Shown one piece after another: positions 621 through 42,405 of a DNA stretch of 43,927 nt; the stretch's first letter is position 1, and every line of letters starts with the position of its first letter. A program made the translations under genes and the position numbers. Origin of the DNA: Deltaproteobacteria bacterium (lineage in GTDB: Bacteria > Bdellovibrionota_B > Oligoflexia > Oligoflexales > Bog-1112); NCBI GenBank assembly GCA_016186945.1, contig JACPKR010000027.1, positions 1-43,927 on the forward strand. Direction: 5' to 3'. A model generated the notes under the pieces. The model was not told the origin of the DNA. It ran no database searches and saw nothing but the letters and a program-made list of their open reading frames with translations.

Positions 621-764
621 GTAATGCTAAGCCACTTAGGGCAAGGAGGTGGTTTGGAGGAAACTGCGCAGCTGGTTCCTCCATGAATTTCTTGGGGGAG
701 CGACGGTTCCCTCGCCCCCCCAATCCCCCCTCTCCCTTTTTGCCTCAAGCGGCTTACGGGTTAC
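621..764 (+). repeat. Family A composite repeat, full-length copy
   Basis: The element starts with GTAATGCTAAGCCACTTAGG and ends with the imperfect inverse of that sequence (GCGGCTTACGGGTTAC). Inside are module A1 (641-683: AAGGAGGTG, then arms TTGGAGGAA and TTCCTCCA around a loop containing CTGCGCAG) and module A2 (about 693-735: GGGGGAGCGACGGTTCCC, then C-tracts). It fills most of the 300-bp region between the two divergent genes. The frame of the downstream gene stays open through it, which creates a false N-terminal extension. Confidence 0.85.
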
Positions 765-802
765 GTTTACCTTTAGAAACTTCTTCCTTAACAGGAGCGT
801 TT

Positions 803-2440
803 ATGGCACTTGGACTTTACCACCCACCCACACCTATCAATGAACCCATCCTTTCCTATGCACCGGGAACACAGGAGCGCAAAACGCTGAAGGCAGCTCT
901 GGATCGTTTTTCCCCAGGAGCGCCCAAAGACCTGCCACTCGTGATCGGGGGAAAACGACGAAAGGGAGCTGGCTCGATGGACGTGACTTGCCCCCATGCG
1001 AAGAGGGAAGTGCTCGCGCGTTGCGCCCAAGCGAATACGGCAGATGCCGAAGCAGCAGTTGGGGCCGCACTCGCTGCACAGAAAGACTGGTCCCGTTTTC
1101 CTTTCGCTGAACGCGCCAGTGTATTTCTCAAAGCTGCTGATCGCCTAGCAGGGGAATACAGAGCGGAAATCAATGCCGCAACTATGATGGGGCAAGGGAA
1201 ATCCGTCCATCAGGCGGAAATAGATGCAGCCTGTGAATTGATCGACTTCCTGCGCTTCAATGTGTATTTCGCGCAGAAAATTTACGAATCCCAACCCCTC
1301 TATTCACCCCGGGGTTTATGGAACAGAAGCGAGGCACGGGCACTGGAAGGTTTTGTGTTCGCAGTCGGACCTTTCAACTTCACAGCAATTTCCGTCAACT
1401 TGGCGACGGCCCCCGCACTTATGGGTTGCACAGTCGTGTGGAAACCAGCTCCTACTGCGGTTCTCGCATCCTACCTTATGTTGGAAGTCCTGGAGAAATC
1501 TGGACTGCCACCAGGCGTCATCAACTTTATCGCAGGTGAGCCAGAGGTCATGGGGAAAACAGTTCTCGGAAACCCTAACCTTGCAGGAATCCACTTCACA
1601 GGGTCCACAACTACTTTTCAACACCTCTGGTCTACTGTAGGGCAAAATATTGCAAGTTACAAAACCTACCCCCGCATTGTGGGTGAAACCGGGGGCAAAG
1701 ACTTTGTGTTTGCCCACTCATCAGCTGACCCACAGGAACTTATCACCGCGCTGATTCGAGGTGCGTTCGAATACCAGGGACAAAAGTGTTCCGCTGCCTC
1801 TCGTGCCTTTATCCCCCGCACACTGTGGAAACAAATAAAAGACAAACTAGTCGCAGAAACCGAGATGATCAAAATGGGAGACCCCCGCGACTTCTCCAAC
1901 TTCATGAACGCAGTGATCGACGCCCGAGCCTTTGTAAAAATCAAAGGCTATATTGACCATGCTAAACAAGCAAGCGACGCCAAGATTTTATGCGGAGGAG
2001 AATGCGATGATTCCGTTGGTTACTTTGTCCGTCCTACGATCATTGAGGCCATAAACCCCCTCTACCGATCCATGACCGAGGAAATTTTCGGTCCGGTCCT
2101 CACGATTTACGTCTACGACGACAACAAGGAGGCGGAAGCTGTCAAACTTTGCGAGGAAAGCACAGCCTACGGATTGACCGGCGCCGTGATGGCCTGCGAC
2201 CGCATGGCAATCGACCGTCTGTCTCGCTCCTTTCTTAATACGGCTGGTAACTTCTACATCAACGACAAACCAACGGGTGCCGTCGTAGGTCAGCAAGCGT
2301 TCGGCGGAGGTAGAAAATCAGGGACAAACGATAAAGCAGGTAGCGAGTGGAACCTAGCGCGATGGGTTTCTTTCAGAAGTGTCAAAGAAAACTTCCTCCC
2401 TCTCACCGATTACCGGTATGATTTTATGAAGGAGGGCTGA
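803..2440 (+). CDS. L-glutamate gamma-semialdehyde (1-pyrroline-5-carboxylate) dehydrogenase, group 1
   Basis: This 545-residue protein is a complete aldehyde dehydrogenase of the ALDH4A1-like P5C dehydrogenase group. That family oxidises glutamate-gamma-semialdehyde to glutamate with NAD+, the second step of proline catabolism. Visible landmarks are the substrate/cofactor segment VFAVGPFNFTAISVNLA, the general base in GETGGKD (E295), the catalytic Cys in YQGQKCSAASR (C329) and the late EEIFGPVL motif. The length matches the mitochondrial-type enzyme (about 560) and not the PutA fusion. I chose ATG 803 because AGGAG lies 5 nt upstream. The open frame reaches back to 554 only because it reads through a repeat. 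No proline dehydrogenase gene is nearby. Confidence 0.93.
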   Translation: MALGLYHPPTPINEPILSYAPGTQERKTLKAALDRFSPGAPKDLPLVIGGKRRKGAGSMDVTCPHAKREVLARCAQANTADAEAAVGAALAAQKDWSRFPFAERASVFLKAADRLAGEYRAEINAATMMGQGKSVHQAEIDAACELIDFLRFNVYFAQKIYESQPLYSPRGLWNRSEARALEGFVFAVGPFNFTAISVNLATAPALMGCTVVWKPAPTAVLASYLMLEVLEKSGLPPGVINFIAGEPEVMGKTVLGNPNLAGIHFTGSTTTFQHLWSTVGQNIASYKTYPRIVGETGGKDFVFAHSSADPQELITALIRGAFEYQGQKCSAASRAFIPRTLWKQIKDKLVAETEMIKMGDPRDFSNFMNAVIDARAFVKIKGYIDHAKQASDAKILCGGECDDSVGYFVRPTIIEAINPLYRSMTEEIFGPVLTIYVYDDNKEAEAVKLCEESTAYGLTGAVMACDRMAIDRLSRSFLNTAGNFYINDKPTGAVVGQQAFGGGRKSGTNDKAGSEWNLARWVSFRSVKENFLPLTDYRYDFMKEG

Positions 2441-2443
2441 CCT

Positions 2444-2923
2444 ATGACTTTTCTGGAACGTTTGAAGGAAACTGTGACACTGCGCCTGTGGGGCTTTTTC
2501 AAGGTACCCATGATTTACTGGGCAGGACCCAAGGTTCTGGAATTGAATGATGACCGGTGCGAGATCTTGATTCCCCTGAAATACTTGACGAAGAATCACT
2601 TCAACTCCCTTTACATAAGCGCACAAGTGACGGGCGCAGATATAGCGGGAGGGCTTCTGGCCCTGCGTCATGCGAAAAACCAAAAGGGAAAAGTATCGGT
2701 TATTTTCAAAGAAATCCGGGGAGATTTCAAGAAACGACCAGAGGAAGATACAATTTTCAGCTGCACTGACGGGAAAGAAATTGCCGCTTTAGTCAAACAG
2801 GCGATCCAGACAAAGACCCGGCATCATAAAACTGTGAAAGTTACAGCAACGTGCCCGAAGACGTTCGGGACTTCCCCAGTTACCGAGTTTTTCCTTACAC
2901 TGTCTGTCAAAGCGAGCAATTAA
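2444..2923 (+). CDS. DUF4442-like hotdog-fold (thioesterase-type) protein
   Basis: This 159-residue protein resembles the DUF4442 branch of hotdog-fold acyl-CoA thioesterase-like proteins. The pattern includes an N-terminal helix (RLKETVTLRLWGFFKVPMI), a V-x-E-L/I-P-L-K-Y-x-T-K-N-H segment and the central helix around SLYISAQVTGADIAGG. It follows the P5C dehydrogenase by 3 nt, with the GGAGGG of the previous gene's end acting as ribosome binding site, so the two are co-transcribed. The substrate is unknown. No signal peptide is seen, so it should be cytoplasmic. Assignment is by pattern only. Confidence 0.7.
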   Translation: MTFLERLKETVTLRLWGFFKVPMIYWAGPKVLELNDDRCEILIPLKYLTKNHFNSLYISAQVTGADIAGGLLALRHAKNQKGKVSVIFKEIRGDFKKRPEEDTIFSCTDGKEIAALVKQAIQTKTRHHKTVKVTATCPKTFGTSPVTEFFLTLSVKASN

Positions 2924-2926
2924 TCC

Positions 2927-2971
2927 TGGGGGAGCGACGGTTCCTTCGCTCCCCCAAACCCCCCTCTCCCT
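2927..2971 (+). terminator. Free-standing A2 repeat module, perfect hairpin between convergent genes
   Basis: Arms TGGGGGAGCGA (2927-2937) and TCGCTCCCCCA (2946-2956) form a perfect 11-bp stem around the loop CGGTTCCT, followed by the A2-typical AACCCCCCTCTCCC. It sits between convergent stops at 2923 and 2977, where a bidirectional terminator would act. There is no T-tract, so a role in termination or 3'-end protection is inferred from position. Confidence 0.6.
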
Positions 2972-2976
2972 TAGGG

Positions 2977-3819
2977 TTACCGTAGGTCATCCATAACGTA
3001 GGTTGGCAAAATCCCCGAACTGAAATCCTCATGCTCAAGGTTGGTCACCCCACACCCTACAAGCACGCTGTCGATTCCGAAATCATTTGCCCCCTTGATG
3101 TCGGTGAGAAGTTGGTCGCCTATCATGACCATCTCCATAGTGTTCGTGCGTCGTCTCGCTTCCTCAAAGAGAGGGGCATAAGGTTTTCCCAAATAGATGA
3201 CCGGAGACGGAGCTTGAGGGAATCGAATACTCACAGCCTTTTCCAACAGATAAGCAAGGCTCCCCGCTGTAATCCCATAGAAGCCCTCCATTTTCGGATA
3301 GATTATGTCGGTGTTTGGCACCAGGACTTTGAGAGGCTTCCCCCTTTCGATGCTGCGAAAAACAAGAGAAATCGCGTGATCAATGCCTTCCACGTAATCG
3401 AAACCCGTCTGATGGGAAAGGATGATCGCATCGACTTCGTCGACGAGTCCCGTCACAACGTGCGCCCCCCCTTCTTCCACCAGGCTGAAGGAGGAGCGAG
3501 GGCCCAGCACCAGGATCTGTTTCCCCGTCAGGCCATTGTCGCGAATCCATCGAGGGACCAAATGACCCGACGAAAGGATGTGGGCCTGGGGAACAGGGAA
3601 GCCTCGCTTTTTCAAATTGGCTTCACTCTGCTCCAGGTTGTAAATCCCACTGTTAGACAATACGAAATAGTCATGTTTGCTATTGTTAAGCAGTTCGATG
3701 AACGCGATAGCCCCGGGAAGATCCCCCTTTGAATCCATGAGAACGCCGAACGCATCAATCAGTAGCGCTTTGTAGCGCAACAACGAAGAAGAATGGACTT
3801 TGGGAGGACGAGGAGCCAT
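2977..3819 (-). CDS. HAD-superfamily class IIA hydrolase
   Basis: This 280-residue protein is a HAD phosphatase of the IIA (NagD/AraL-like, C2-capped) type. Motif I is LIDAFGVLMD, where the usual second Asp is an aromatic residue, as in the DxWGV-type subgroup (TIGR01459-like). Motif II falls in FVLSNSG, motif III Lys in YLGKPYAPLF, and motif IV is MIGDQLLTDIKGAN. The substrate is unknown; relatives act on small phosphorylated sugars or nucleotides. ATG 3819 is preferred to the in-frame ATG at 3852, which lies inside a family B repeat. The 3' end converges on the hotdog-protein gene. Confidence 0.8.
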   Translation of the reverse strand: MAPRPPKVHSSSLLRYKALLIDAFGVLMDSKGDLPGAIAFIELLNNSKHDYFVLSNSGIYNLEQSEANLKKRGFPVPQAHILSSGHLVPRWIRDNGLTGKQILVLGPRSSFSLVEEGGAHVVTGLVDEVDAIILSHQTGFDYVEGIDHAISLVFRSIERGKPLKVLVPNTDIIYPKMEGFYGITAGSLAYLLEKAVSIRFPQAPSPVIYLGKPYAPLFEEARRRTNTMEMVMIGDQLLTDIKGANDFGIDSVLVGCGVTNLEHEDFSSGILPTYVMDDLR

Positions 3820-3832
3820 CGCGTCACTTTCT

Positions 3833-4020
3833 ATAGTATTCAAGATAATCATTTGGGGACAAACTTTTTGAAAAAAGTTATTTCCCCAAACCCCTTTTTA
3901 AAAACTTCAATATTTAAAGTTTTTTGGGGGGAGGCGTGGAGGGGAACTTTTTTTCAAAAAAGGTCCTCTCCACAAATTCTTTTTCTCAAATCCACAAATT
4001 CTTTTTCTCAAAGACTATAG
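3833..4020 (+). repeat. Family B multi-hairpin repeat, copy 1
   Basis: The element runs from TAGTATTCAAGATAATCA to CTCAAAGACTATAG. It contains nested complementary blocks (GGGGACAAAC with GTTATTTCCCC, and GTGGAGGGGAACTTTTT with AAAAGGTCCTCTCCAC) and long A/T runs. This copy has a 22-bp tandem duplication (3969-3990 and 3991-4012). Its right end overlaps the last codons and stop of the peroxiredoxin gene on the minus strand. Other copies are at 34344, 36578 and 37312. Confidence 0.85.
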
Positions 4021-4599
4021 GCCGAAATAAGTTTTCAAGCCTTGCTCATTCGGACGCATGGTTTTCTCACCCTTTCTCCAGTTAGCGGGGCAAACTTCCC
4101 CATGCTTTTCGTTGAACTGAAGGGCATCGAGCACGCGCAAGAATTCATCCACATTTCGGCCAAGCGGAAGATCGTTTACCGTTTGATGGCGAACAACACC
4201 CTTCTGGTCGATGAGGAAAGCTCCTCTATACGCCACGCCCGCACCCTGTACAAGAACATCGTAGTCGCGTGCGATCGTCTTGTTGATATCCGCTACAATC
4301 GCATAGCGTACACCTTGAATACCCCCGTCTTTCTTCGGAGTCCTGAGCCAAGCAAGATGACTGTACTCAGAGTCCACGGAACAACCAATCACCTCACAGC
4401 CCCTTTCACGGAAGGCCTCAGACCTTTCCTGGAACGCATGAAGCTCCGTTGGGCAAACAAACGTAAAATCCAAGGGGTAAAAGAACAAAAGAACGTACTT
4501 CCCCCTGTAGTCACTAAGCTTGAAATTGTCTTTAAGATCACCGTTTACAACAGCCTTGGCTGTAAAATCAGGTGCTTGCTTTCCAACCAATACACTCAT
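4015..4599 (-). CDS. ahpC: Typical 2-Cys peroxiredoxin (AhpC/Prx1 type)
   Basis: This 194-residue thiol peroxidase reduces H2O2, organic peroxides and peroxynitrite in the cytoplasm. The peroxidatic Cys is C49 in DFTFVCPTEL. The resolving Cys is C170 in GEVCPANW, followed by a typical C-terminal YF-containing tail (TYFGL). GGIQGVRYAIVAD and AYRGAFLIDQ are typical Prx1/AhpC segments. The stop codon and last residues lie in the end of a family B repeat. No ahpF or thioredoxin reductase is adjacent, so the reductant is not evident. The gene symbol is used for the family and not for proven orthology to E. coli AhpC. Confidence 0.92.
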   Translation of the reverse strand: MSVLVGKQAPDFTAKAVVNGDLKDNFKLSDYRGKYVLLFFYPLDFTFVCPTELHAFQERSEAFRERGCEVIGCSVDSEYSHLAWLRTPKKDGGIQGVRYAIVADINKTIARDYDVLVQGAGVAYRGAFLIDQKGVVRHQTVNDLPLGRNVDEFLRVLDALQFNEKHGEVCPANWRKGEKTMRPNEQGLKTYFGL

Positions 4600-4706
4600 G
4601 ATGCACTCCCATAATTCGTATTATTTTGTTAAAGAAAGAAGATTTATTCAATCAAAGGTACCGATAAAATTCAAGAAAGCTTTTCTGGCGATAACAAGTC
4701 TCATTT

Positions 4707-6410: not shown

Positions 6411-6476
6411 GCAAGGAGGTGGTTGGGATCCAGCAAGGAGGTGGTTTGGAGGAAACTGCGCAGCTGGTTCCTCCAA
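6411..6476 (+). repeat. A1 repeat with a truncated tandem copy
   Basis: A partial copy (GCAAGGAGGTGGTTGGGATC, 6411-6430) is followed by a complete A1 hairpin module (6433-6476). It lies between the divergent exonuclease and glutaredoxin genes, about 95 nt before the glutaredoxin ATG. Confidence 0.85.
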
Positions 6477-6879: not shown

Positions 6880-6886
6880 ATATTGG

Positions 6887-7023
6887 TAATGCGTAAGCCA
6901 CTTGGGGCAAGGAGGTGGTTTGGAGGAAACTGCGCAGCTGGTTCCTCCAAGAAATCCCTTGGGGGAGCGACGGTTCCCTCGCCCCCCCAAACCCCCCTCT
7001 CCCTATTTGCCCCAAGTGGCTTA
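6887..7023 (+). repeat. Family A composite repeat, near full-length
   Basis: Terminal inverted repeats TAAGCCACTTGGGGCAA (6894-6910) and TTGCCCCAAGTGGCTTA (7007-7023) are perfect over 17 bp. The left end extends further to GTAATGCG, while the right extension is lost. Inside are A1 (6907-6950) and A2 (about 6960-7003). It occupies the entire gap between two co-directional genes, and the next ATG is only 9 nt after its end. Confidence 0.9.
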
Positions 7024-8190: not shown

Positions 8191-8234
8191 TTGGAGGAAC
8201 CAGCTGCGCAGTTTCCTCCAAACCACCTCCTTGC
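8191..8234 (-). repeat. A1 hairpin repeat between convergent genes
   Basis: Complete A1 module on the minus strand: TTGGAGGAA, loop with CTGCGCAG, TTTCCTCCAA, then CCACCTCCTTGC. It lies between the stops of the PLP enzyme (8178) and the small membrane protein (8243). Confidence 0.85.
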
Positions 8235-10575: not shown

Positions 10576-10673
10576 GCAAGGAAGGGAGTTTGAGGGAAAA
10601 CTGCGCAGCTGGTTTCCCTCAAGGAAGTCTTGGAGGAACCAGCTGCGCAGTTTCCTCCAAACCACCTCCTTGC
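10576..10673. repeat. Head-to-head A1 pair, first copy a stem-conserving variant
   Basis: The plus-strand copy (10576-10622) has stem arms TTGAGGGAAA (10590-10599) and TTTCCCTCAA (10613-10622). Both arms differ from the usual TTGGAGGAA/TTCCTCCAA yet stay perfectly complementary, with the same loop. A normal A1 copy on the minus strand follows (10630-10673). The pair lies between convergent genes and may work as a bidirectional terminator. Confidence 0.85.
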
Positions 10674-10750
10674 CAAAAGAGCGCTAACGCAGTTTCCTCC
10701 AAACCACCTCCTTGCTTAACTCCAAAAGAGCACTAACGCAGGTTCCTCCA
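10674..10750. repeat. 49-bp tandem duplication containing A1 fragments
   Basis: CAAAAGAGCGCTAACGCAG... (10674-10701) recurs at 10723-10750 with two mismatches over 28 bp. Each copy ends in a TTCCTCCA arm of A1. The second copy overlaps the last codons and stop of the LptF/G-like gene. Confidence 0.75.
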
Positions 10751-16029: not shown

Positions 16030-16096
16030 GCAAGGAGGTGGTTTGGATCGTGGCAAGGAGGTGGTTTGGAGGAAACTGCGCAGCTGGTTCCTCCAA
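16030..16096 (+). repeat. A1 repeat with truncated tandem copy
   Basis: A partial copy (GCAAGGAGGTGGTTTGGATC, 16030-16049) is followed by a complete A1 module (16053-16096), the same arrangement as at 6411. It lies between two plus-strand genes, about 78 nt before the next ATG. Confidence 0.85.
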
Positions 16097-19694: not shown

Positions 19695-19893
19695 AAGCCC
19701 AGGGCCTGTTCATATGAAAAAAGGTTAAGAGAATTTCCGTCATTGCGAGCGAATGCGAAGCAATCCAGGCTGAAGTTTGCCCACCTTGGTAAGCGGCAGA
19801 CGACCTGGATTGCTTCGTCGGGCTTCGCCCTTCTCGCAATGACGTTATTTTTTCTCATTCCATTCTCATATGAACAGGCCCTGGGGAAAAGCC
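19690..19893. mobile_element. MITE-like 184-bp insertion with 10-bp target duplication
   Basis: Inverted ends CAGGGCCTGTTCATATGA (19700-19717) and TCATATGAACAGGCCCTG (19866-19883) match perfectly over 18 bp. They are flanked by direct repeats GGGAAAAGCC (19690-19699 and 19884-19893). No transposase is encoded. The interior holds a second inverted structure of the widespread GTCATTGCGAG / GAAGCAATCCAGG type (about 19739-19844). Immediately to the right is CCTGCCCTGAGCAAAGCGAA, another common intergenic repeat. With the A2 fragment it fills the 337-bp gap between divergent genes. Confidence 0.8.
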
Positions 19894-20642: not shown

Positions 20643-20767
20643 GGGCAAGGAGGTGGTTTGGAGGAAACTGCGCAGCTGGTTCCTCCAAGAAATCCCGGGG
20701 AGGCGACGGTTCCCTCACCCCCCCACCCCCCCCTCTCCCTATTTGCCCCAAGTGGCTTACGCATTAC
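20643..20767 (+). repeat. Family A composite repeat, left terminus truncated
   Basis: A1 (20645-20688), A2 (about 20694-20737) and an intact right terminus TTGCCCCAAGTGGCTTACG...AC (20743-20767). Only GGGGCAA of the left terminus remains. It lies between two plus-strand genes, ending about 60 nt before the PilT-like start. Confidence 0.88.
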
Positions 20768-20828: not shown

Positions 20829-22658
20829 ATGCAACGGTTTAAGGAGATCTTGAAAGATTCCATCAAAACGGGAGCTTCCCATCTCGAACTTAAAGCAGGA
20901 GGGGTGCCCACACTTCACAAGGAAGAGCATAAGAAGGAACTTCAACAGCATGGTGTCGTAGGGAAAGAGTGGCTGGCCGGTATCGCGAAGATGCTCTTTG
21001 CAGGAGGGTTTGAATCTTTAGAAAGCGGGCAAGCACAACAGAGCAAGCTATCTATTCCCAGAGTCGGTGAACTGCTCCTCTTGGCCAAAAGTCGGGGGGG
21101 AATGTCCATTACCGTCTACTTTCCACCGAACGGGGAGACGCTTTTCAAAAAACACTGGGAGCAGTCCCTGGCCGAAGCCGCCGAAAAGCCTCCCGTAAGC
21201 ACAGCTGGCGAAGGTTTCGAGAAACCCCAGACGATCGGGTTCGTGCCAAGTGCAGACTTCTTCGCTGCTCCTGAAGAATCTGGAGGAGAGGCTGTTCCCT
21301 TGCCCCCCGACACAAAACAACCACCTGACTCCGTGGGCTTGGATATAGAATTTGGGGGAGCGACGGTTCCCTCACCCCCCCAAGCCCCCCTCTCCCTGGA
21401 GGAGGAGGTTCCCTCGCCCCCCCAAGCCCCCCTCTCCCTAAAGGACTCCGTGGGCTTGGATATAGAATTTGGGGGAGGCGACGCTTCACTCGCCCCCCCA
21501 GCCCCCCTCTCCCTAAAGGACTCCGTGGGCATCGACTTTTCAATTGAGATCCAAGGCGAGGTTGCGACGGGCGGGGGTCAGCTCCCGATAGATAGTCTTT
21601 TGAAAAATATGGTGAGCAGACGATCGAGTGACCTCCACCTCACTTGTGGGCACTTGATCGCTTTTCGGGTGGACGGCGACATTGTACGAGAAGAGAAAGG
21701 ACCTCCGCTATCTCCTGCGATGCTTGAACACCTCCTACTCCCGATTATCCCGGACTTTAAGCGTGCCCAGTTTGCAAAGTTCTGGGACGTGGACTTCGCC
21801 TATGCCTTGGCTGGAGTGGGACGTTTTCGGGTCAATCTTTTCCGCGATAATCACGGCGTAGGGGCGGTGTTCCGCTATATTCCCGACAAAGTCCTGACTC
21901 TGGAAGAATTGGGAGCGCCCGATGCGCTCTTCAACTTCTGTAAGATGGCGAAGGGTCTCGTCCTTGTGACGGGTCCGACAGGAAGCGGGAAGTCGACCAC
22001 ACAAGCCGCGATGATCGACTTTATAAATGAGGCCCGCCACGAGCACATTATAACCATCGAAGATCCCATTGAGTTCGTCCATCCCCAAAAGAAGTGCCTT
22101 ATCAACCAACGGGAAGTGGGGAAGCACACGGAGTCGTTTTCCCAAGCCTTGCGAGCAGCACTACGGGAAGATCCTGATGTCGTGCTGGTGGGCGAGCTGC
22201 GCGACCTGGAAACAACTTCCATCGCGCTTGAAACTGCCGAGACTGGTCACCTGGTCTTCGGCACCCTTCACACAAACACCGCGGTTTCGACAATAGACCG
22301 TGTCATAGACCAGTACCCAACGGAACAACAGAGGATCATCCGCAACACGCTTGCCGCATCCCTCCGCGGTGTAGTCACCCAGGTTCTCTGCCGGAAAAAG
22401 GAGGGCGGGCGCTGCGCAGCCTATGAAATCCTCGTGACGGATGATGCCGTCGCCGCCATGATCCGAGAGGGGAAAAATCATATGATCCCTAGCCACATGC
22501 AGACACAGAAAGCGGCTGGAAACCGCCTACTCAACGAATCCCTTCTCAAGTTGGTCATGGAGGGTTTAGTTGACTACGAAGAGGCCTGGAAAAAGTCTAT
22601 AAATAGGAAGGAATTCGAGGAGACCTTGAAAAAGAAGGGCGGCAGCCGGGCGGCATAG
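20829..22658 (+). CDS. PilT-type secretion/retraction ATPase with duplicated N-domain and repeat-derived linker
   Basis: This 609-residue protein has a C-terminal PilT-like hexameric ATPase (about 245-609): N-domain SRRSSDLHLTCG, arginine region VGRFRVNLFRDN, Walker A GPTGSGKST (G382 to T390), Asp box IITIEDPIEFVH, Walker B DVVLVGELRDLET, His box GTLHTN. PilT is normally about 350 residues and powers type IV pilus retraction. Residues 1-110 look like a second, degenerate PilT N-domain (SIKTGASHLELKAGG). Residues about 174-237 are encoded by three A2 repeat copies and read PSPPQAPLSL twice. ATG 20829 follows GTGAGG. No other pilus gene is nearby. Confidence 0.88.
   Translation: MQRFKEILKDSIKTGASHLELKAGGVPTLHKEEHKKELQQHGVVGKEWLAGIAKMLFAGGFESLESGQAQQSKLSIPRVGELLLLAKSRGGMSITVYFPPNGETLFKKHWEQSLAEAAEKPPVSTAGEGFEKPQTIGFVPSADFFAAPEESGGEAVPLPPDTKQPPDSVGLDIEFGGATVPSPPQAPLSLEEEVPSPPQAPLSLKDSVGLDIEFGGGDASLAPPAPLSLKDSVGIDFSIEIQGEVATGGGQLPIDSLLKNMVSRRSSDLHLTCGHLIAFRVDGDIVREEKGPPLSPAMLEHLLLPIIPDFKRAQFAKFWDVDFAYALAGVGRFRVNLFRDNHGVGAVFRYIPDKVLTLEELGAPDALFNFCKMAKGLVLVTGPTGSGKSTTQAAMIDFINEARHEHIITIEDPIEFVHPQKKCLINQREVGKHTESFSQALRAALREDPDVVLVGELRDLETTSIALETAETGHLVFGTLHTNTAVSTIDRVIDQYPTEQQRIIRNTLAASLRGVVTQVLCRKKEGGRCAAYEILVTDDAVAAMIREGKNHMIPSHMQTQKAAGNRLLNESLLKLVMEGLVDYEEAWKKSINRKEFEETLKKKGGSRAA
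21353..21514 (+). repeat. Three in-frame A2 repeat copies inside a coding region
   Basis: Copies at about 21353-21398, 21405-21440 and 21470-21514 carry the GGTTCCCTC(A/G)CCCCCC and CCCCCTCTCCCT blocks of A2. A 34-bp flank starting GACTCCGTGGGCTTGGATAT recurs at about 21327 and 21444, so the unit spread by local duplication. All are translated in the PilT-like protein. Confidence 0.85.
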
Positions 22659-24629: not shown

Positions 24630-24673
24630 GCAAGGAGGTGGTTTGGAGGAAACTGCGCAGCTGGTTCCTCCAA
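24630..24673 (+). repeat. A1 hairpin repeat
   Basis: Complete A1 module on the plus strand, 6 nt after the solute-binding protein stop and 68 nt before the YggT ATG. Confidence 0.85.
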
Positions 24674-28202: not shown

Positions 28203-28300
28203 CCGTCGCCCCCCCTGTCATCCCGCGGCTTGACCGCGGGATCCAGTCAACAGCAGTTTCCTCCAAACCACCTCCTTGCCCCAAGTGGCTTACGCATTAC
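28203..28300. repeat. Repeat patch: A2 fragment, CCCGCGG palindrome, half of a family A element
   Basis: A C-tract A2 fragment (ACCGTCGCCCCCCC) is followed by GTCATCCCGCGGCTTGACCG then CGGGATCCA (about 28217-28244), an inverted repeat of the same type as the right-edge tandem array. The left half of a family A element on the minus strand follows (28253-28300, ending TTGCCCCAAGTGGCTTACG...AC), broken in the middle of the A1 hairpin. The patch occupies most of the 248-bp gap between the divergent redoxin and lexA genes. Confidence 0.8.
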
Positions 28301-29007: not shown

Positions 29008-29710
29008 TTTACAAGCAAAAGGGGTGTCAGTTGCGGGCTTGACGCTGGCCTGTTCTGACACCTCAGCGTCCCCTATAAACCTGTGTTCGTTCAACAAGAA
29101 GGTCGACGACTTTCTATCAGGAGGTTTCCCGATAGGTTCGTTAATAGAGTGGGGTGTGCCTATGGGGAAAGAAGGAAGGCAGCTGCTTTTTCCCTTCCTG
29201 GCCAACGTCACGCAGGGACGGCAATTTCCTCCGTCTTTTGTGCTGTGGGTCAACGGGTTTAAGGAACTGAAAGTCTTTCCTCCCGCATGGTTTGTGAGGG
29301 GCGTGGTACCGGGCAAGGTGCTCTTTGCCCAAAGCTGTGATGTGCTCCATGACTTGAAGCAGGTGTTTCTAAGCCCCGTGTTCAAAGTGATCGTGCTCGA
29401 CACCCCCCAATATTTGTCACGGGAGGATTGTTTGTTTCTCAAGAAGAAGGCGCAGAGGCATAAGCAGATTCTGTTCCTTCTACGCCCCTACCGTCTCAAC
29501 AACGAGAAGGGCAACGTCGCATGCAGTGTACGCATGAACATCTGGCGTGATCAACAGAAAGACACGCTGGTGGCACATGTCATCAAAGGATTAACGGATC
29601 GTAAGCTTTTCTTGGAGGAACCAGCTGCGCAGTTTCCTCCAAACCACCTCCTTGCCACAGATGGCGAAGTAAGGAAGTCAAATGCGTGTTTACATAGCTT
29701 TGGAATGTGA
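28979..29710 (+). CDS. imuA: ImuA-like (RecA/SulA-related) translesion synthesis accessory protein, repeat-encoded C-terminus
   Basis: This 243-residue protein has a degenerate RecA-like core (DDFLSGGFPIGSLIEWG, SFVLWVNG, FKVIVLDTPQYLSREDCLFL, ILFLLRPYR). Position between lexA and imuB supports ImuA, which helps ImuB and DnaE2 in damage-induced mutagenesis. TTG 28979 has TAGGGAAG 4 nt upstream and overlaps lexA by 29 nt; starts at 29024 (GTG) are possible but poorly placed. The last 35 residues include LEEPAAQFPPNHLLA, translated from an antisense A1 repeat, and overlap imuB by 29 nt. Confidence 0.8.
   Translation: MGCSDALPLNLQAKGVSVAGLTLACSDTSASPINLCSFNKKVDDFLSGGFPIGSLIEWGVPMGKEGRQLLFPFLANVTQGRQFPPSFVLWVNGFKELKVFPPAWFVRGVVPGKVLFAQSCDVLHDLKQVFLSPVFKVIVLDTPQYLSREDCLFLKKKAQRHKQILFLLRPYRLNNEKGNVACSVRMNIWRDQQKDTLVAHVIKGLTDRKLFLEEPAAQFPPNHLLATDGEVRKSNACLHSFGM
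29612..29655 (-). repeat. A1 hairpin repeat translated as the ImuA tail
   Basis: A full 44-bp A1 copy on the minus strand lies within the 3' end of imuA, 26 nt before the imuB ATG. It is the only A1 copy antisense to both flanking co-directional genes. Its plus-strand reading frame gives LEEPAAQFPPNHLLA. Confidence 0.88.
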
Positions 29711-34343: not shown

Positions 34344-34505
34344 TTTGAGAAAAAGAATTTGTGGAGAGGACCTTTTTTGAAAAAAAGTCCCCCTCCACGC
34401 CTCCCCCCAAAAAACTTTAAATATTGAAGTTTTTAAAAAGGGGTTTGGGGAAATAACTTTTTTCAAAAAGTTTGTCCCCAAATTGATTATCTTGAATACT
34501 ATAAA
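34344..34505 (-). repeat. Family B multi-hairpin repeat, copy 2
   Basis: Full copy, inverted relative to the other three. It starts 3 nt after the dnaE2 stop with TTTGAGAAAAAGAATTTGTG and ends TTGAATACTATA, 3 nt before the convergent stop at 34508. It fills the whole intergenic gap. The stem GTGGAGAGGACC...CCCTCCAC is nearest to dnaE2. Confidence 0.9.
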
Positions 34506-36577: not shown

Positions 36578-36743
36578 TTAGTATTCAAGATAATCAACTT
36601 GGGGACAAACTTATTGAAAAAAGTTATTTCCCCAAGCCCCTTTTTAAAAACTTCAATATTTAAAGTTTTTTGGGGGGAGGTGTGGAGGGGAACTTTTTTT
36701 CAAAAAAGGTCCTCTCCACAAATTCTTTTTCTCAAAGATTATA
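36578..36743 (+). repeat. Family B multi-hairpin repeat, copy 3
   Basis: From TTAGTATTCAAGATAATCAA to CTCAAAGATTATAG. The right end is about 20 nt from the stop of the minus-strand membrane/HAMP gene. With flanks it occupies the 253-bp gap between two minus-strand genes. Confidence 0.9.
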
Positions 36744-36761
36744 GAGCAAGATACCCTGTCG

Positions 36762-37277
36762 CTAGAGATGCTCATCAAGGAGCGTGTTGAGAGTAGCAGA
36801 CGCCTGGCGTAGCTCCTCGGAAGCTTCGGTCACGTGCATGCGTCGTAGGCGGTTGCCTTGCCGCCACTCATTGAGGATCAGGCACATCTCGGATACGGGC
36901 GTGATGTTGCGCCTCAAGATTTGTCCTTCTAGCAATTTTCCCAGCAAAAAACCCAAAAGAGCGAGGAAAACAATAGCCCATGCGCCCCCCGTTGCAAAAA
37001 GTCTAGCCTCATGGAGATCTTCCTTCATGGCGGCATCTAGAGACCGCAAGTTCTGCAAGTTTTTGGTTAACAAACCCAGCGTGTTAGAATCCGCTTTTTC
37101 ATCTTTGCTAACAACAGAGACCATCTCCTCCACGATCTCCATAATCATTCTGTCTTTCTCAGAAAGATCGGATATGGCTGGTGTCATACGTTCAAGAAGA
37201 AAAACGCACGAAATCCCGACTATGAAATTTATACCGAGGACAAAATTCATCCCCCGTTTGAAGTGTTTTTCCAGCAT
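36762..37277 (-). CDS. Two-TM sensor-like protein with HAMP-like tail and no output domain
   Basis: This 171-residue protein has TM1 (NFVLGINFIVGISCVFLL), an extracytoplasmic helical segment of about 65 residues, TM2 (GGAWAIVFLALLGFLLGKLL) and then a HAMP-like helix pair (RNITPVSEMCLILNEWRQGN...ASEELRQASATLNTLLDEH). This is the front end of a chemoreceptor or sensor kinase, but it stops with no kinase, cyclase or signalling domain. GGGAGG is 4 nt before ATG 37277, which decides the start; upstream in-frame ATGs lie in repeat. A truncated receptor or a small regulatory partner are both possible. Confidence 0.7.
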   Translation of the reverse strand: MLEKHFKRGMNFVLGINFIVGISCVFLLERMTPAISDLSEKDRMIMEIVEEMVSVVSKDEKADSNTLGLLTKNLQNLRSLDAAMKEDLHEARLFATGGAWAIVFLALLGFLLGKLLEGQILRRNITPVSEMCLILNEWRQGNRLRRMHVTEASEELRQASATLNTLLDEHL

Positions 37278-37290
37278 GTGTCCTCCCATT

Positions 37291-37440
37291 GTAATGTGTA
37301 AGCCACTTGGGGCAAGAAAGTTCTTTCCCCCACCCCTTTTCAAAAACTTCAATATCTAAAGTTTTTTGGGGGGAGGCGTGGAGGGGAACTTTTTTTCAAA
37401 AAAGGTCCTCTCCACAAATTCTTTTTCTCAAAGACTATAT
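37291..37440 (+). repeat. Family A left terminus fused to family B copy 4
   Basis: GTAATGTGTAAGCCACTTGG then GGCAA (37291-37315) is the family A terminus. It runs directly into a family B element lacking its left third (CCACCCCTTTTCAAAAAC...CTCAAAGACTATA). The right end supplies the TGA stop of the minus-strand KtrA-like gene. It fills the gap between 37277 and 37428. Confidence 0.87.
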
Positions 37441-38093
37441 GTACTCAAAAGTTTTTCAATCTTACCGGGAGGCGACACAACGATTAGAATATCTCCGTCG
37501 TGTATGATTTCGTCTGCTCGGGCAAGTTTCACCGTTCCCGAAGCAGCGGAGCGGACTGCGATCACGGTAATTCCATAGTTGCGCCTGAGATCCAAGTCGA
37601 TCAGCGACTTTTTCCAGAACCGATCAGGCGCCTTGAATTCGGTGACGGTAAGGTCAGAACCCAGCGACATTTCGGCCAGAATGTTCTCACTCATGATACG
37701 ATTGGCAAATTTTGCACCGAAATCCCACTCGGGGTTGATGACTTCATCCGCACCGACCAGTTTCAAAATCCTAGAGTGCAAATCATCGTTCGCCCTTGCA
37801 ATCACTCGCTTTGCCCCCATCTGCTTGAGAAGGGCCGTGCAGATGATAGCAACCTCCTTTGATTGATCCCCGGTCGCGCAGACACAGACATCCCTGCTTC
37901 CAGGATCGAGCTGAGCGAGAGCCTCGCCTTCCGTCGCGTCGAAGCAAAAAACCTGTGAAGAATACTGAGAAGCGATTTGGACTTTCTCTTTGTTCTTGTC
38001 TATGGCAATCAGTTCGGTCTCAAGACTGGAAAGCGCTTTCAGAAGCCCGAGTCCGAACTGACCGAGACCTATGACCACGATCTGCTTTTTCAC
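37428..38093 (-). CDS. ktrA: K+ uptake regulatory subunit, TrkA/KtrA (RCK) family
   Basis: This 221-residue cytoplasmic RCK protein has an N-terminal Rossmann domain with nucleotide-binding GLGQFGLGLL and acidic D32 (AIDKNKEKV), then DATEGEAL and an RCK_C domain (about 135-221). It gates the adjacent membrane subunit (19 nt downstream in genome order, same strand) in response to nucleotides. The single-RCK length matches KtrA and not the double TrkA. The last codon and stop lie in a family B repeat. Symbol is by family. Confidence 0.9.
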   Translation of the reverse strand: MKKQIVVIGLGQFGLGLLKALSSLETELIAIDKNKEKVQIASQYSSQVFCFDATEGEALAQLDPGSRDVCVCATGDQSKEVAIICTALLKQMGAKRVIARANDDLHSRILKLVGADEVINPEWDFGAKFANRIMSENILAEMSLGSDLTVTEFKAPDRFWKKSLIDLDLRRNYGITVIAVRSAASGTVKLARADEIIHDGDILIVVSPPGKIEKLLSTYSL

Positions 38094-38112
38094 TCAACCC
38101 TCCTTGTTGCGC

Positions 38113-40155
38113 CTACACAACCGTTACTTCTTCTTCCGGCACAACCCATTTTAAAGTCGCAACGCGCTGAGATAGAAAAACGATGACAGAAAGAGAACCG
38201 ACCCGACCCACGAACATGCAGATGATGATGATGATTTTTCCTACCTGATCAAGCTGGGCTGTTCCACCAAGAGAAAGTCCGACTGTACTCAATGCAGAAA
38301 CAACCTCGAATAAGGCCACAATTGGTCTCATGTCCTGCGTTGCGAGTAGGGCAATGCATGCAATCAAACCAGACAACATAGCAAAAGCGGCAATCGTCGC
38401 TGCTCGATAAACCGTTCTCTCGGGAATACGTCGGTTAAACGCTATCACTTTAGCATGCCCTTTCACGACACTGACCATGGTCATGAAAAATACCATAAAG
38501 GTTGTAACGCGAATCCCCCCTGCTGTTCCTCCCGGCGCACCTCCTACAAACATCAGAGCTATGGAAATAAAAACCGATGCAGATGACAACAGCGACTGAT
38601 CCACCGTATTAAACCCTGCAGTGCGAGTGGTCACCGACTGGAACCAGGCGTTATTCAACTTCTCCCAGAAACCAAGATGCGCGAACGCCTGATTCCACTC
38701 CAAAAATGTAAAAAAGAACATTCCTGATAGAAGTAGAATGAGAGTCCCCAAAATGATAAACCGAGCCTGTAAAGGAATGGCGGACCTTCGATGAAGGAAC
38801 GGAAGCGTAATGATAAAGGCAGGAGATAGCCCACCTGCAATGACCAGCAACGCTACACTGTGAAGGATAACAGGATTGCCCTGAAAACGAATCAAGTTAT
38901 CTGAGAATAAAGAGAAACCAGCATTGCAAAAAGCTGAGATAGAGGTGAAAAGCCCTCGCCAAAAGGCCAAACCAAGACTATCCCCTTCCTGAAGAAAAGC
39001 CAGGGAGAGAACAAGTGTCCCCATAAGTTCAAAAAACACGGTCACCTGTATGATCCGCTTAAGAATGCTACCCACAGCCCCCTTTTGCTTTTGTCCCATA
39101 GCTTGAGTGACCGCAATCTCCTCCCTGACACTGAGTCTGCGCCCTATCAGAGCACTGGCAAGAGCAGACAAAGCCATGATTCCCAGCCCCCCCAACTGGA
39201 TGAGGATGAGCACGAAAACCTGACCGAGGGCACTCAAATCTTGTGGTGTATCGACAACAATCAAGCCTGTGACACATACAGCACTGACCGCAGTAAAAAC
39301 AGCGTCGATCATTGCCATACCACTCGGCAAGACTGAACTCGCGGGAAGAACAAGCAGAATCGAACCAATCGTACACAAAAAGAGAAACGTGAGGATGATA
39401 GCACCCTCAGGATGGCGAAAAAGGGAGTCGAGAAGCTGATGCACAGATTTCAACACGGTCGATCGGTAGAAGGCAAGCATAACCCCCGGAAAGGTGAACA
39501 CAACGGAGTACAAACTGAGCACATCCAAGGGCCTGTCAAACTCAAATAGGGTATAACCAAAGAAAGGAAGTACAAAAATCACTAAGCTTAACCCAAGCAT
39601 CTTCGGATGTCCAAACACCGCAGCAAAGTAGACGAATACTAGAAACGCAATGACATTGGCACCAAGACTGGCCCATAGGAAGCTCGGTGAGCCACCTATA
39701 TGAAAGAGGAACACTGCCAACCATATGCCTATAGCAAGCGTTGAGTTAGGAATGAGTATAGAAAGCCAAAGGTCTTCCGAACGCGATAAATTCTGCCTGC
39801 CCGCCTGCCAATGCCGGTGGGAAAGAATCCAACTTGTGATCCCAATATAGGAACTGAGAACAAATAATCCCAGAGTCGGACTCATTATGAGATGATTGGA
39901 AATGTTTCCCAACCAGAGAGTCAAGCTTCCAACGCTCAGAACCTTAAAAAGAAAGGTGCTATAAAAAAGACTGAGACCCCCCAAAAAAGCCAGGATAGCT
40001 ACGGAAATATTGACCAAAACTTCCCATACGACCACCGACGCCATATAAGGAGCTTTCTGACTGAGAAGCTCGGAGGCTATAAGGAGAAGAGGGCCTAGCT
40101 GCCATAACATTCCCACAAGGGCAGGATGATAGTGGGAACGCAGTATGTTTTTCAA
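38113..40155 (-). CDS. ktrB: K+ transporter membrane subunit, KtrB/TrkH family, with N-terminal extension
   Basis: This 680-residue membrane protein contains the four pore loops of the TrkH/KtrB superfamily: AVCVTGL, AFCNAGFS, TTRTAGFN and ALSTVGLS. The Gly of each loop forms the K+ selectivity filter. GGAPGGTAGGIRVTTF before the last unit is typical. The KtrB core is about 440 residues; the extra about 220 residues at the N-terminus add roughly six or seven hydrophobic helices that I cannot assign, so this is a longer subtype. It is first in an operon with ktrA. Confidence 0.9.
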   Translation of the reverse strand: MKNILRSHYHPALVGMLWQLGPLLLIASELLSQKAPYMASVVVWEVLVNISVAILAFLGGLSLFYSTFLFKVLSVGSLTLWLGNISNHLIMSPTLGLFVLSSYIGITSWILSHRHWQAGRQNLSRSEDLWLSILIPNSTLAIGIWLAVFLFHIGGSPSFLWASLGANVIAFLVFVYFAAVFGHPKMLGLSLVIFVLPFFGYTLFEFDRPLDVLSLYSVVFTFPGVMLAFYRSTVLKSVHQLLDSLFRHPEGAIILTFLFLCTIGSILLVLPASSVLPSGMAMIDAVFTAVSAVCVTGLIVVDTPQDLSALGQVFVLILIQLGGLGIMALSALASALIGRRLSVREEIAVTQAMGQKQKGAVGSILKRIIQVTVFFELMGTLVLSLAFLQEGDSLGLAFWRGLFTSISAFCNAGFSLFSDNLIRFQGNPVILHSVALLVIAGGLSPAFIITLPFLHRRSAIPLQARFIILGTLILLLSGMFFFTFLEWNQAFAHLGFWEKLNNAWFQSVTTRTAGFNTVDQSLLSSASVFISIALMFVGGAPGGTAGGIRVTTFMVFFMTMVSVVKGHAKVIAFNRRIPERTVYRAATIAAFAMLSGLIACIALLATQDMRPIVALFEVVSALSTVGLSLGGTAQLDQVGKIIIIICMFVGRVGSLSVIVFLSQRVATLKWVVPEEEVTVV

Positions 40156-40482
40156 TATAACGCCCCTAAATTATTGCCTATCTGTGCTTAGATATTTTAC
40201 TTTGCAAAGGGAGTGAAGCAAAGGAAAAGCTAGGCCATTAGATAAGCCGCTAGTTTTAGGGGCTATTTTGACCGACATCCGCGCAAAAAAAATGTTGTTT
40301 CGTGGAAATCCCTACTGTATGCTCTCCTCATCCTTTTAAAAGAAGGATAGTTGGCTAAGGGTAGAGTTCTTGAGAACCTTGTCGAGTTTAGCTTGGTTGT
40401 GTTACCGCTTGAACCCGCTTTCTTCAGAAACCGGAGCAGTTGCTCCCTACCTATTTTTTAAGTTTTTTTCTTGTAAGGATTC
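40156..40482 (+). promoter_or_regulatory. Long structured leader upstream of the RRM protein gene
   Basis: This 327-bp gap before the RNA-binding protein gene contains several small perfect hairpins: ATCCTT/AAGGAT (40330-40348), GTTCTTGAGAAC (about 40365-40378) and GGAGCA/TGCTCC (40433-40446), then a T-run (about 40452-40470) and AAGGA before the start. The pattern suggests a long 5' leader, possibly with post-transcriptional or temperature control. No clear promoter was found. The left part, near the divergent ktrB start, shows nothing recognisable. Confidence 0.4.
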
Positions 40483-40836
40483 ATGAAAATGGAAAAGAAG
40501 ATCTACGTTGGTGGTTTGTCGTACAGCACCACTGAACAAACGCTCTACGAAATGTTTGCCCGCATCGGCAATGTTGAGTCGGTTAAAATCATAACCGATC
40601 GCGACACAGGCCGAAGCAAAGGTTTTGCTTTCGTAGAAATGGCCTCTGGAGAAGAAGCACAATCAGCTATCGACAAGTACAACGGCACCGAACTCGACGG
40701 TCGTCGCCTTCTCGTTAACGCAGCGAAACCACAAGCTCCTCGCAGTAACCGCACTGGTGGCGGCGGCGGCGGTGGTGGTGGCCGAAGCAGCTGGGGTGGA
40801 AATGGCGGCGGTGGAAACCGTGGCCCACGCTGGTAA
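40483..40836 (+). CDS. RRM-type RNA-binding protein with Gly-rich tail
   Basis: This 117-residue protein has one RNA recognition motif (about 5-82) with RNP2 IYVGGL (7-12) and RNP1 KGFAFVEM (46-53), then a Gly/Arg-rich tail (GGGGGGGGGRSSWGGNGGGG). It closely resembles the small Rbp proteins of cyanobacteria and many proteobacteria, often cold-induced. It binds RNA in the cytoplasm; targets unknown. ATG 40483 is 3 nt from AAGGA, while ATG 40489 has better spacing. A strong terminator follows. Confidence 0.93.
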   Translation: MKMEKKIYVGGLSYSTTEQTLYEMFARIGNVESVKIITDRDTGRSKGFAFVEMASGEEAQSAIDKYNGTELDGRRLLVNAAKPQAPRSNRTGGGGGGGGGRSSWGGNGGGGNRGPRW

Positions 40837-40884
40837 AAAGACCCAAATGTAGCCAACACAACGAAATTGTTTTGAGCTAAATTG

Positions 40885-40917
40885 AAAAGCCAGGTTGGAA
40901 ACGACCTGGCTTTTTTT
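40885..40917. terminator. Bidirectional rho-independent terminator
   Basis: AAAAGCCAGGT (40885-40895) and ACCTGGCTTTT (40904-40914) form a perfect 11-bp stem with the loop TGGAAACG and a 7-T run. It serves the RRM gene on plus and can serve the convergent gene at 40933 on minus. Confidence 0.88.
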
Positions 40918-40932
40918 CTTTGTTTAGGAAGC

Positions 40933-41592
40933 CTATCGGGGCGACATGTGTGGTGTAATTCTTCCTGTCCCATCGACAGAGTAAACACTGCCGAGAGTGG
41001 TTCCGCGACGCTGCACAAACCACAAGTTCCCATCGAACTTTGTTCCAAAAATACCCGCTAGTTCAGAGGGTGACTTTCCCTCTAGTCGCCCTTGTGAAAA
41101 GTCGATAGCCCTGCGCACTTCCGAAGCAGGATGGAATTTCCCACGGATGGGGAGGGCCCCGGGCTTGACTGGACTGTTCATCCCTGCTTGTAGCCGAATA
41201 ATTTTTTTAGAAAGGTTCATCGCATCAAGCGGAGAGATCGCTCTTCCCCCCCGCCACATGTCCCCGGCCAAATTCAACCCCTCTATTTCCCCAAACTCCG
41301 CTTTGAAATCCTGGTCGTTCATGACCAGGAAGAAGTCTTCTGTAAGATCGTCTTCTTTCTTAATTTCAGCAGCTTCAGCCGAACCTTGATTGTCTTCTTG
41401 TGGAATTACGGGTTCAGAGGATGGAAGGTTTTCACTTGCGTTTTTGTCAGTTTCCTCACTTGGAGCTAACGCAGACACTGGTTTCTGGACGGCTGTCTTG
41501 GGAGCAGGCTTTTGAAGCTTCGTGGCCCCTTCCTGATAGCAAGCGGAAGTTAAGAAAAGAAACATAATTAGGTTTAGGTTAGTGGCATTCAC
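40933..41592 (-). CDS. Putative lipoprotein, unknown
   Basis: This 219-residue protein starts at GTG 41592 with GAGGG 5 nt upstream. The signal sequence NATNLNLIMFLFLTSAC has a good lipobox (TSAC). The next 70 residues are a low-complexity Pro/Ala/Glu linker, typical of surface lipoproteins that cross a layer. The folded C-terminal part (about 90-219) includes FKAEFGEIEGLNLAGDMWRGGR and a repeated-looking FHPASEVRRAIDF segment. No domain recognised. ATG 41565 would remove part of the signal peptide; GTG 41625 lacks a spaced SD. Confidence 0.65.
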   Translation of the reverse strand: MNATNLNLIMFLFLTSACYQEGATKLQKPAPKTAVQKPVSALAPSEETDKNASENLPSSEPVIPQEDNQGSAEAAEIKKEDDLTEDFFLVMNDQDFKAEFGEIEGLNLAGDMWRGGRAISPLDAMNLSKKIIRLQAGMNSPVKPGALPIRGKFHPASEVRRAIDFSQGRLEGKSPSELAGIFGTKFDGNLWFVQRRGTTLGSVYSVDGTGRITPHMSPR

Positions 41593-41683
41593 AGTTTCCC
41601 TCTGGGCGAATTTCACGAGTTCCACTCTTTAGTTTATATGAAGCAGGTGCAAAAAGTAACCCGTAGGCTGCACGAGAGATTTC

Positions 41684-41727
41684 TTGGAGGAACCAGCTGC
41701 GCAGTTTCCTCCAAACCACCTCCTTGC
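41684..41727 (-). repeat. A1 hairpin repeat
   Basis: Complete copy on the minus strand, between two minus-strand genes. It is 9 nt after the stop at 41737 and about 91 nt upstream of the GTG at 41592. Confidence 0.85.
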
Positions 41728-41736
41728 TCACATCCT

Positions 41737-42213
41737 TTAATGCATACACTCACCTAATTGACCGCTCAGCAGAACCAATTTCCCAGCCACCTTCGACGCA
41801 TCATAAAAATAATAGAGCTTGGCCTTTTTGGGATTCCGTCTTTTCCCATAATTGACTTCGCAGAATGTCCCTCTTTCGACGTTCCCGATGGAGATTTTGG
41901 GAAAGGTCAGATGAGCGTCAAAGTTCCGCAAGAACCACTGAGCGTCTGAGCTGCTTACTTCCTCACATCCCACCACGGGCGACTTCTGCACCTTGTCCCT
42001 CGCCTTTTCTCTCAGCTCAGCAATGTATTGACCCGCTTCGTCTACTTTTATTTTCAGAAAGGCTTTGTTCTCGATTTTGTCTTGAGCATCTGGTGCGCCA
42101 GGCTTCAAATAGAGGCCAGGAACGCGCACCCCTTTGCAGGAATAACTGGGCGCAGCAAGAGCAGAAAGAGGCAGAACACTTAGACAGGAAATGATAGCGA
42201 TTCTTCGTAGCAT
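41737..42213 (-). CDS. Small exported protein, unknown
   Basis: This 158-residue protein has a clear Sec signal peptide (MLRRIAIISCLSVLPLSALA, cleavage after ALA). The mature protein is mixed, with Cys at SYSCKGV, VVGCEEV, TFCEVNYG and QLGECMH, likely two disulfides. GAGGAGG is 4-5 nt before the ATG. Two A1 repeats lie upstream. No family recognised. Confidence 0.68.
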   Translation of the reverse strand: MLRRIAIISCLSVLPLSALAAPSYSCKGVRVPGLYLKPGAPDAQDKIENKAFLKIKVDEAGQYIAELREKARDKVQKSPVVGCEEVSSSDAQWFLRNFDAHLTFPKISIGNVERGTFCEVNYGKRRNPKKAKLYYFYDASKVAGKLVLLSGQLGECMH

Positions 42214-42289
42214 GAGACCTCCTCAATGGGATTTGTAGTCCTTGCATAACTAACTGATATTCATAGTTATTTCAACCAAAAATGAACTA

Positions 42290-42405
42290 TTGGAGGAACC
42301 AGCTGCGCAGTTTCCTCCAAACCACCTCCTTGCCACTGAAAACTAGCTGCCCAAGGGATTTCTTGGAGGAACAAATGTGCAGTTTCCTCCAAGCCACCTC
42401 CTTGC
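42290..42405 (-). repeat. Two A1 hairpin repeats in tandem, second with diverged loop
   Basis: The copy at 42290-42333 is standard. The copy at 42363-42405 keeps both stem arms (TTGGAGGAA, TTTCCTCCAA) and the AAGGAGGTGG block on the minus strand, but the loop reads CAAATGTGCAG instead of CCAGCTGCGCAG. Both point toward the minus-strand gene at 42213. They occupy much of the 292-bp gap before the translocase gene. Confidence 0.85.

Follow-up and report, generated by a model that had tools for sequence, protein, structure and literature searches.

The window analysed here is the whole 43,927-nt stretch of contig JACPKR010000027.1, and coordinates given without a contig label are positions in it. 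It contains multiple copies of a 44-nt unit, A1 (GCAAGGAGGTGGTTTGGAGGAAACTGCGCAGCTGGTTCCTCCAA), in which a purine head is followed by a hairpin. The analysis suggests that A1 is probably a non-coding mobile DNA element resembling the repetitive extragenic palindromic (REP) sequences, and that it works as folded DNA, not as ribosome-binding RNA. Most likely A1 represents selfish mobile DNA and does not act as a switch of protein synthesis. The copies are sharply bounded 44-nt units at unrelated sites. Eleven copies in the window match the unit at 43-44 of 44 positions, and partial and variant copies were also found (Table 1). AAGGAGGTG, the string that gives A1 the look of a perfect Shine-Dalgarno (SD) sequence, has 17 occurrences in the window, where shuffled sequence would give 0.5. 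The arms of the hairpin are spaced by 13 nt, which themselves pair around a CGCAG loop.

The genome is represented by a 2.66-Mb draft assembly of 76 contigs that is 91% complete. The first 28 nt of A1 were found at 413 places with at most two mismatches, and the reversed control pattern gave none; these numbers confirm the dispersed 44-bp hairpin repeat described in an earlier note on this DNA. Detailed survey of 1.10 Mb identified 166 copies, 116 of them perfect (44/44), and 154 copies were away from contig edges. Genes were called with a simple dicodon scorer of our own. A1 strongly prefers intergenic DNA and has no strand preference. Although called genes cover about 87% of the sequence, 146 of the 154 copies lie between them, and the copies in co-directional gaps comprise 38 sense and 39 antisense (binomial p = 1.0).

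The distribution of A1 among relatives is patchy. The exact head-plus-hairpin pattern was absent from seven other genomes of the family, one of which is of the same genus. DNA comparison gave many 80-95% matches in two other genera, represented by G003 and G005, both metagenome-assembled genomes (MAGs) from the same family of Oligoflexales. Counts of the hairpin core AACTNCGCAGNTGGTT are 380 in the genome studied, 95 in G003 and 66 in G005; the core was not found in five other family members, including the same-genus genome, and two of the 50 other genomes of the class had a single occurrence each. The best DNA matches between G001 and the genome studied are 64-74% identical, over short stretches only. 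A scan of 84,980 species for the G-rich form returned only two MAGs, Deltaproteobacteria bacterium RE-9nov16-152 and Oligoflexales bacterium Go_Eff_bin_111. Searches of viral contigs, phages and plasmids gave no match beyond chance.

A separate observation was made in G003, where A1-like hairpins with facing heads cap a palindromic non-coding element of about 350-520 nt (L118:12612-13130, L114:17780-18310, L115:3150-3680, and L112:8880-9230). It consists of one or two structured domains of about 190 nt with the invariant blocks CACAAATCGCA and TGCGATTTTGAGAG. There are 19 or more copies of the domain, and they show some covariation. The 519-nt form folds at -314 kcal/mol (z = -16) and has no Rfam match. 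It is possibly a new structured mobile element.

Covariation analysis of 110 distinct hairpins from the three genomes showed compensatory changes in the stem. Selection of the hairpins required at least four outer pairs and biases the pairs adjacent to the core; the pairs quoted here are outside that filter. The z scores were calculated against shuffled partners, which does not remove relatedness. The loop-proximal pair 12-18 has z = 10.1, with G-C, T-A, A-T, and C-G all occurring. The outer stem pairs have z = 6.1, 10.6 (2-28), and 9.4 (1-29), against -0.5 to 2.9 in slid controls. A T.T mismatch (107/110), an A.G mismatch (106/110), and the CGCAG loop are nearly fixed. A compensatory stem with fixed mismatches and loop is as expected of a folded single strand that would be seen by a protein. 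REPs of E. coli also bear fixed stem mismatches, which are needed by TnpA_REP (PMC8266576). The mobile and hairpin-forming nature of the element, as proposed earlier, is supported.

The purine head of A1 is a mirror image of the 5′ stem arm. The head AAGGAGG mirrors the arm GGAGGAA, and the head AAGGGAG of the sister class A1' mirrors GAGGGAA. AAGAGAG is found with GAGAGAA in a rarer class of the same genome, and AAGAGGG with GGGAGAA in one G005 class; in G003 and most G005 forms, an AGGGG head matches a GGGGA arm. Across 38 distinct head-arm pairs, the longest mirror match is 5.2, compared with 4.7 for permuted heads (z = 5.5). Of mirror and direct match, the former is the longer in 24 pairs and the latter in two; in the main classes the mirror is 5-7 nt long. 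Where the head has one more A, the stem tends to have one more A-T pair (Fisher p = 7e-5). Most classes have a 3-nt TTT linker between head and arm. With this linker, we infer that position 10 of A1 would form a T.A-T triple; T-to-A is the commonest change there (4/6), and A.A-T is also permitted in the motif. This layout, with a 5′ purine strand mirrored on a purine arm, a short linker and a pyrimidine 3′ arm, is that of the class I purine-motif intrastrand triplex, in which the purine strand is folded back antiparallel to the purine arm across a short linker (PMC4666352). Purine-motif triplexes are stated to be unable to form in RNA (PMC4666352), which points to DNA as the working form of A1. 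A G-quadruplex was also considered and rejected: although A1 has at least four GG runs, such runs are too few in A1' and in the G005 GGAAGAGGG class, and the feature is not conserved.

The earlier note had read A1 as an RNA element of 5′ leaders, in which the SD serves as a ribosome-binding decoy, standby site, anti-SD or switch. AAGGAGGTG does agree with the 16S tail of a same-family genome, which ends in GGATCACCTCCTTTCT; no 16S gene was found in the 91%-complete assembly itself. Ordinary genes also use SD sequences, since GGAGG lies upstream of 60 of 660 ATG starts compared with 6 in a control window, a count in which the choice of starts itself gave SD a bonus. The sense bias held in the window, where five of six co-directional copies are sense by the new gene calls, but it vanished over 1.1 Mb with the even split given above; the 5:1 ratio reflects a small sample. 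Random genome-wide orientation was the outcome that the note itself had named as contrary to its idea. In the co-directional gaps of the 1.1 Mb, none of the sense copies brings AAGGAGG to within 15 nt of a called start. Of the copies listed in the note, the variant at 10576 has AAGGAAGGG in place of AAGGAGGTG. The string is not conserved, as relatives show AAGGAGGGG and sister classes AAGGAAGGGAG, AAGGAAGAGAG or AAGGAAGAGGG. Competition of AAGGAGG and the 5′ arm for CCTCC had also been proposed; it cannot occur in the sister classes because the head there is the mirror of the arm and not its equivalent, and folding prefers the arm-arm hairpin over pairing with AAGGAGG. Rfam covariance models gave no match in the window. 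Therefore, random orientation, the lack of SD spacing and the unconserved string lead us to reject the leader reading, which is contradicted by orientation, distance and conservation and is the least probable of the alternatives considered. From its sequence, the perfect-SD look of A1 would be a coincidence of a purine third strand.

Position relative to genes might instead indicate an element of transcript 3′ ends, such as a terminator or mRNA stabiliser. For 61 of the 77 copies in co-directional gaps, the stop codon upstream is closer than the start codon downstream (medians 32 vs 114 nt), which also speaks against a leader function. Convergent gaps hold 21% of copies and 12% of intergenic bases (p = 0.005), and the hairpin can function in both directions. 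However, neither strand has a T-run after the hairpin, 39 copies were found in divergent gaps, and the mirror head is unexplained by an RNA function. Avoidance of promoters would yield the same positional bias. A 3′-end role is therefore considered improbable.

A1 also occurs inside larger elements. Terminal repeats flank 46 of the 166 copies on both sides, nearly all in elements of about 143-149 bp. These have 25-bp terminal inverted repeats (TIRs; GTAATGCGTAAGCCACTTGGGGCAA); exact 8-bp target duplications were found in at least 12 of them, and four more agree at 7/8 bases. On the evidence of the TIRs and target duplications, the elements of about 145 bp are miniature inverted-repeat transposable elements (MITEs). 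A second context is different: 86-87 copies have no MITE end on either side. Alignment of 62 solitary copies gave about 2 bits per base within A1 and near 0 a few bases beyond, with a weak CTTGTG trace on the left and a GAAA (GAAAT) trace on the right. No target duplication was detected at solitary copies, and their flanks share k-mers no more than shuffles do. A1 could be a mere passenger of the MITE, moved by a DDE-type transposase, with solitary copies as decay remnants. The full-length MITEs, their duplications and the weak traces are in favour of this explanation. However, a perfect match (44/44) is retained by 54 of 86 solitary copies whose flanks lack MITE sequence, so uniform decay is insufficient, and the G003 and G005 copies examined place the same hairpin in other contexts, without this MITE. 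The passenger explanation is unlikely on balance.

Within MITEs, A1 is far more uniform than its surroundings. In an alignment of 43 MITEs, A1 has a mean pairwise divergence of 0.9%, compared with 10-20% elsewhere (5′ TIR 19.7%, middle 14.8%, 3′ TIR 9.8%). Private changes per site per copy amount to 0.26% in A1 compared with 1.6-2.1% elsewhere, or 6-8 times fewer. Late insertion of A1 into empty MITEs is unlikely because contents other than A1 are rare among TIR ends. Gene conversion, repeated overwriting and selection remain as candidate causes, and the uniformity might also be an artefact of reads over-corrected in a high-copy repeat. In the case of selection, A1 could be a DNA site maintained by the host, for nucleoid, gyrase or a replication protein, under purifying selection at hundreds of places. 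The rigidity of A1 within the same MITE copies favours this, whereas the presence of the core in three genomes and its absence from five family members do not. In contrast to a binding site, A1 is about equally rigid at all 44 positions, and homogenisation by conversion accounts for the data equally well. A host-maintained site is about as doubtful as the passenger explanation, if not slightly more so. A1 is a recently homogenised, abundant DNA repeat.

Some further features of the MITE were observed. On the minus strand, its right module (6957-7005 and 690-738) reads AGGGAGAGGGGGG-TTT-GGGGGGGCGAGGG...CTCCCCC, a purine mirror with a pyrimidine arm; judged from this layout the MITE may carry two convergent triplex motifs, with a score that does not tell mirror from direct. 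Pieces of the G/C-rich MITE module are repeated in frame at 21350-21516 in the coding gene 20829-22658, a nucleotide-binding protein with VLVTGPTGSGKST, and add a repetitive linker. They recall the palindromic elements found inside genes of Rickettsia. A toxin-antitoxin-like pair (small antitoxin-like and PIN-like frames, judged by eye) lies beside a MITE at a contig end (L012:425-992).

Truncated heads are unevenly placed around A1. Of the 154 copies, 25 have such a head in the 80 nt on their 5′ side and only four on their 3′ side. Most heads retain the 5′ end and stop within A1, in a region of 12-29 nt. Two of the 25 cases are complete copies next to A1, and some represent tandem duplications with flank included. 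Purine-motif intrastrand triplex (PIT) elements reportedly block DNA polymerase in vitro (PMC4666352). The 5′-side heads are consistent with arrest and slippage at a putative A1 structure.

The following mechanism is proposed. When A1 becomes single-stranded during replication, transfer or repair, the hairpin would form, and the head may fold back into its major groove to give a putative class I triplex of G.G-C and A.A-T triples with T.A-T at position 10. The apparent perfect SD would be the third strand of this triplex. The folded A1 might stall DNA polymerase and leave truncated heads on its 5′ side, and it is probably recognised in trans by an enzyme acting on single strands. A1 may additionally move as a module of the TIR-flanked MITE. 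We also tentatively suggest, although we consider it more doubtful than the mobile-element reading itself, that A1 might belong to a new class of single-stranded DNA mobile elements. Its recognition feature would be an intrastrand triplex maintained on a mismatch-marked hairpin, and one enzyme could both spread copies and homogenise them in place, so that A1 stays clean in mutated MITEs.

Candidates for the mover were searched. Four Y1 hits were found in the genome: three are IS200/605 TnpA genes, intact or broken, with TnpB-like frames or fragments next to them, and the fourth (C52) is an IS200/605 TnpA cut by the contig end. In the two RAYT-like (REP-associated tyrosine transposase-like) loci of G005 that were examined, A1 is not flanking. 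For the MITE, the GTAA tips and 8-bp duplications suggested IS66 as the mover; it was rejected, as its transposase PF03050 is absent from the genome. A gene between two TIRs (C52:40825-42534) was also considered as the transposase and proved to be an O-antigen ligase.

Several results weigh against A1 as a folded mobile DNA element. The RAYT model NF047646 gave no match over the cut-off in the genome, and no A1 was found at the ends of its IS200/605 copies; the genome is itself only an incomplete draft. The direct-repeat score between head and arm is likewise above the null (z = 3.8), so shared composition and descent explain part of the head-arm link. Some G003 hairpins are without a purine head, and in about one third of G005 classes an additional A at the start of the stem makes the contiguous mirror weaker. 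A1 orientation has no link with local GC skew and no replication-strand bias was seen, though a lagging-strand mechanism might predict one.

The features of the window are collected in Table 1. Other dispersed palindromes, of the TGGATCCCGCGGTCAAGCCGCGGGATGACA and GTCATTGCGAGC...GCAATGACG type, were observed at 43813-43927, at 19739-19860 and in the 28253 region, where one interrupts A1. A repeat family of about 138 bp has four copies that are 85-99% alike (3853-3990, 34344-34483, 36599-36736, and 37295-37432); the copy at 37293 has a TIR end as in the MITE with different contents.

Table 1. A1 copies and related features in the window
Feature	Position	Strand	Identity to A1	Remarks
Full MITE (5′ TIR, A1, module B, 3′ TIR)	621..764	+		144 bp, around 641 copy; flanks GTTTAGCT/GTTTACCT agree at 7/8 bases
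A1 copy	641..684	+	43/44	
Truncated A1 head	6411..6427	+		directly 5′ of 6433 copy
A1 copy	6433..6476	+	44/44	
MITE	6886..7023	+		around 6907 copy; 3′ TIR truncated
A1 copy	6907..6950	+	44/44	
A1 copy	8191..8234	-	44/44	solitary
A1' sister class	10576..10624	+		tail-to-tail with 10630 copy; head AAGGAAGGGAG, stem GAGGGAAA/TTTCCCTC; without AAGGAGGTG
A1 copy	10630..10673	-	44/44	
Truncated A1 head	10688..10715	-		28 nt
Truncated A1 head	16030..16047	+		directly 5′ of 16053 copy
A1 copy	16053..16096	+	44/44	
A1 copy	20645..20688	+	44/44	in partial MITE; module B and 3′ TIR retained to ~20767
A1 copy	24630..24673	+	44/44	solitary
Half A1 copy	28253..28279	-		adjoins MITE end; interrupted by another palindromic repeat
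A1 copy	29612..29655	-	44/44	antisense near 3′ end of a called gene
A1 copy	41684..41727	-	44/44	
A1 copy	42290..42333	-	44/44	
Diverged A1 copy	42362..42405	-	34/44	

Earlier work proposed intrastrand triplexes in bacterial repeats on the basis of sequence and demonstrated them in vitro, with little evidence that evolution keeps the fold. Across sister classes, the third strand of A1 appears to covary with the Watson-Crick stem. Such co-change would amount to comparative evidence for a triplex, and it allows a triplex role in mobility or polymerase arrest to be tested. Inside older MITEs A1 carries few mutations, which points to a homogenising process. A perfect Shine-Dalgarno string within a repeat can be something else, and caution is needed.

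Comparison with known systems was made for three groups. The BoxC/PIT/TM_ECO elements (PMC4666352) are, like A1, short, highly conserved, intergenic, without strand bias and patchy among related genomes. They share the layout of a purine-motif intrastrand triplex with a 3-nt linker. They often form inverted pairs of type A with type B; here A1 is paired with inverted A1' tail-to-tail at 10576/10630 in the window, at C6 25652/25685, C12 21867/21900, and C16 17275/17308, among several. However, TM_ECO is of class II (Y-R-R), G/C-rich, with a hairpin loop of 3-6 nt, and its pattern CCCTCNCCC N3-6 GGGNGAGGG N3 GGGNGAGGG does not describe A1, which is of class I (R-R-Y) with a different sequence. 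The A1 cap is a conserved 13-nt section with fixed T.T and A.G mismatches and the CGCAG loop, outside the loop limit of the ITxF search. A1 also differs from TM_ECO in its cross-genus covariation.

The bacterial MITEs share the length of about 145 bp, the 25-bp TIRs and the 8-bp duplications, with A1 as an internal module; they differ in that A1 exists alone too, and that no matching transposase was found. The REPs and REPINs (PMC3733652, PMC8266576, PMC3116915) are palindromes of 20-45 bp, with hundreds of copies per genome, extragenic, and single or in inverted heterodimers. A1 shares their fixed stem mismatches and sister classes with compensatory stem changes, and agrees with the general description of a REP as a 20-45 bp palindrome with more than 100 extragenic copies and an imperfect stem. 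In the REP GTAG superfamily, a 5′ GTAG (or GTGG/GYAG) tag adjoins the stem, and genomes have a RAYT gene that REPs often flank. The tag is not conserved here, as A1 has GTGG, A1' has GGAG, and the G003 and G005 forms have GGGG; the CGTC tag of the REP CGTC superfamily is absent from the 44-nt unit. A1 further differs in its long purine head, and no RAYT was found above the cut-off in the genome or flanking A1. Therefore, on the tag and RAYT tests, A1 is not a REP proper. The closest known systems are the BoxC/PIT triplex repeats and the REPs.

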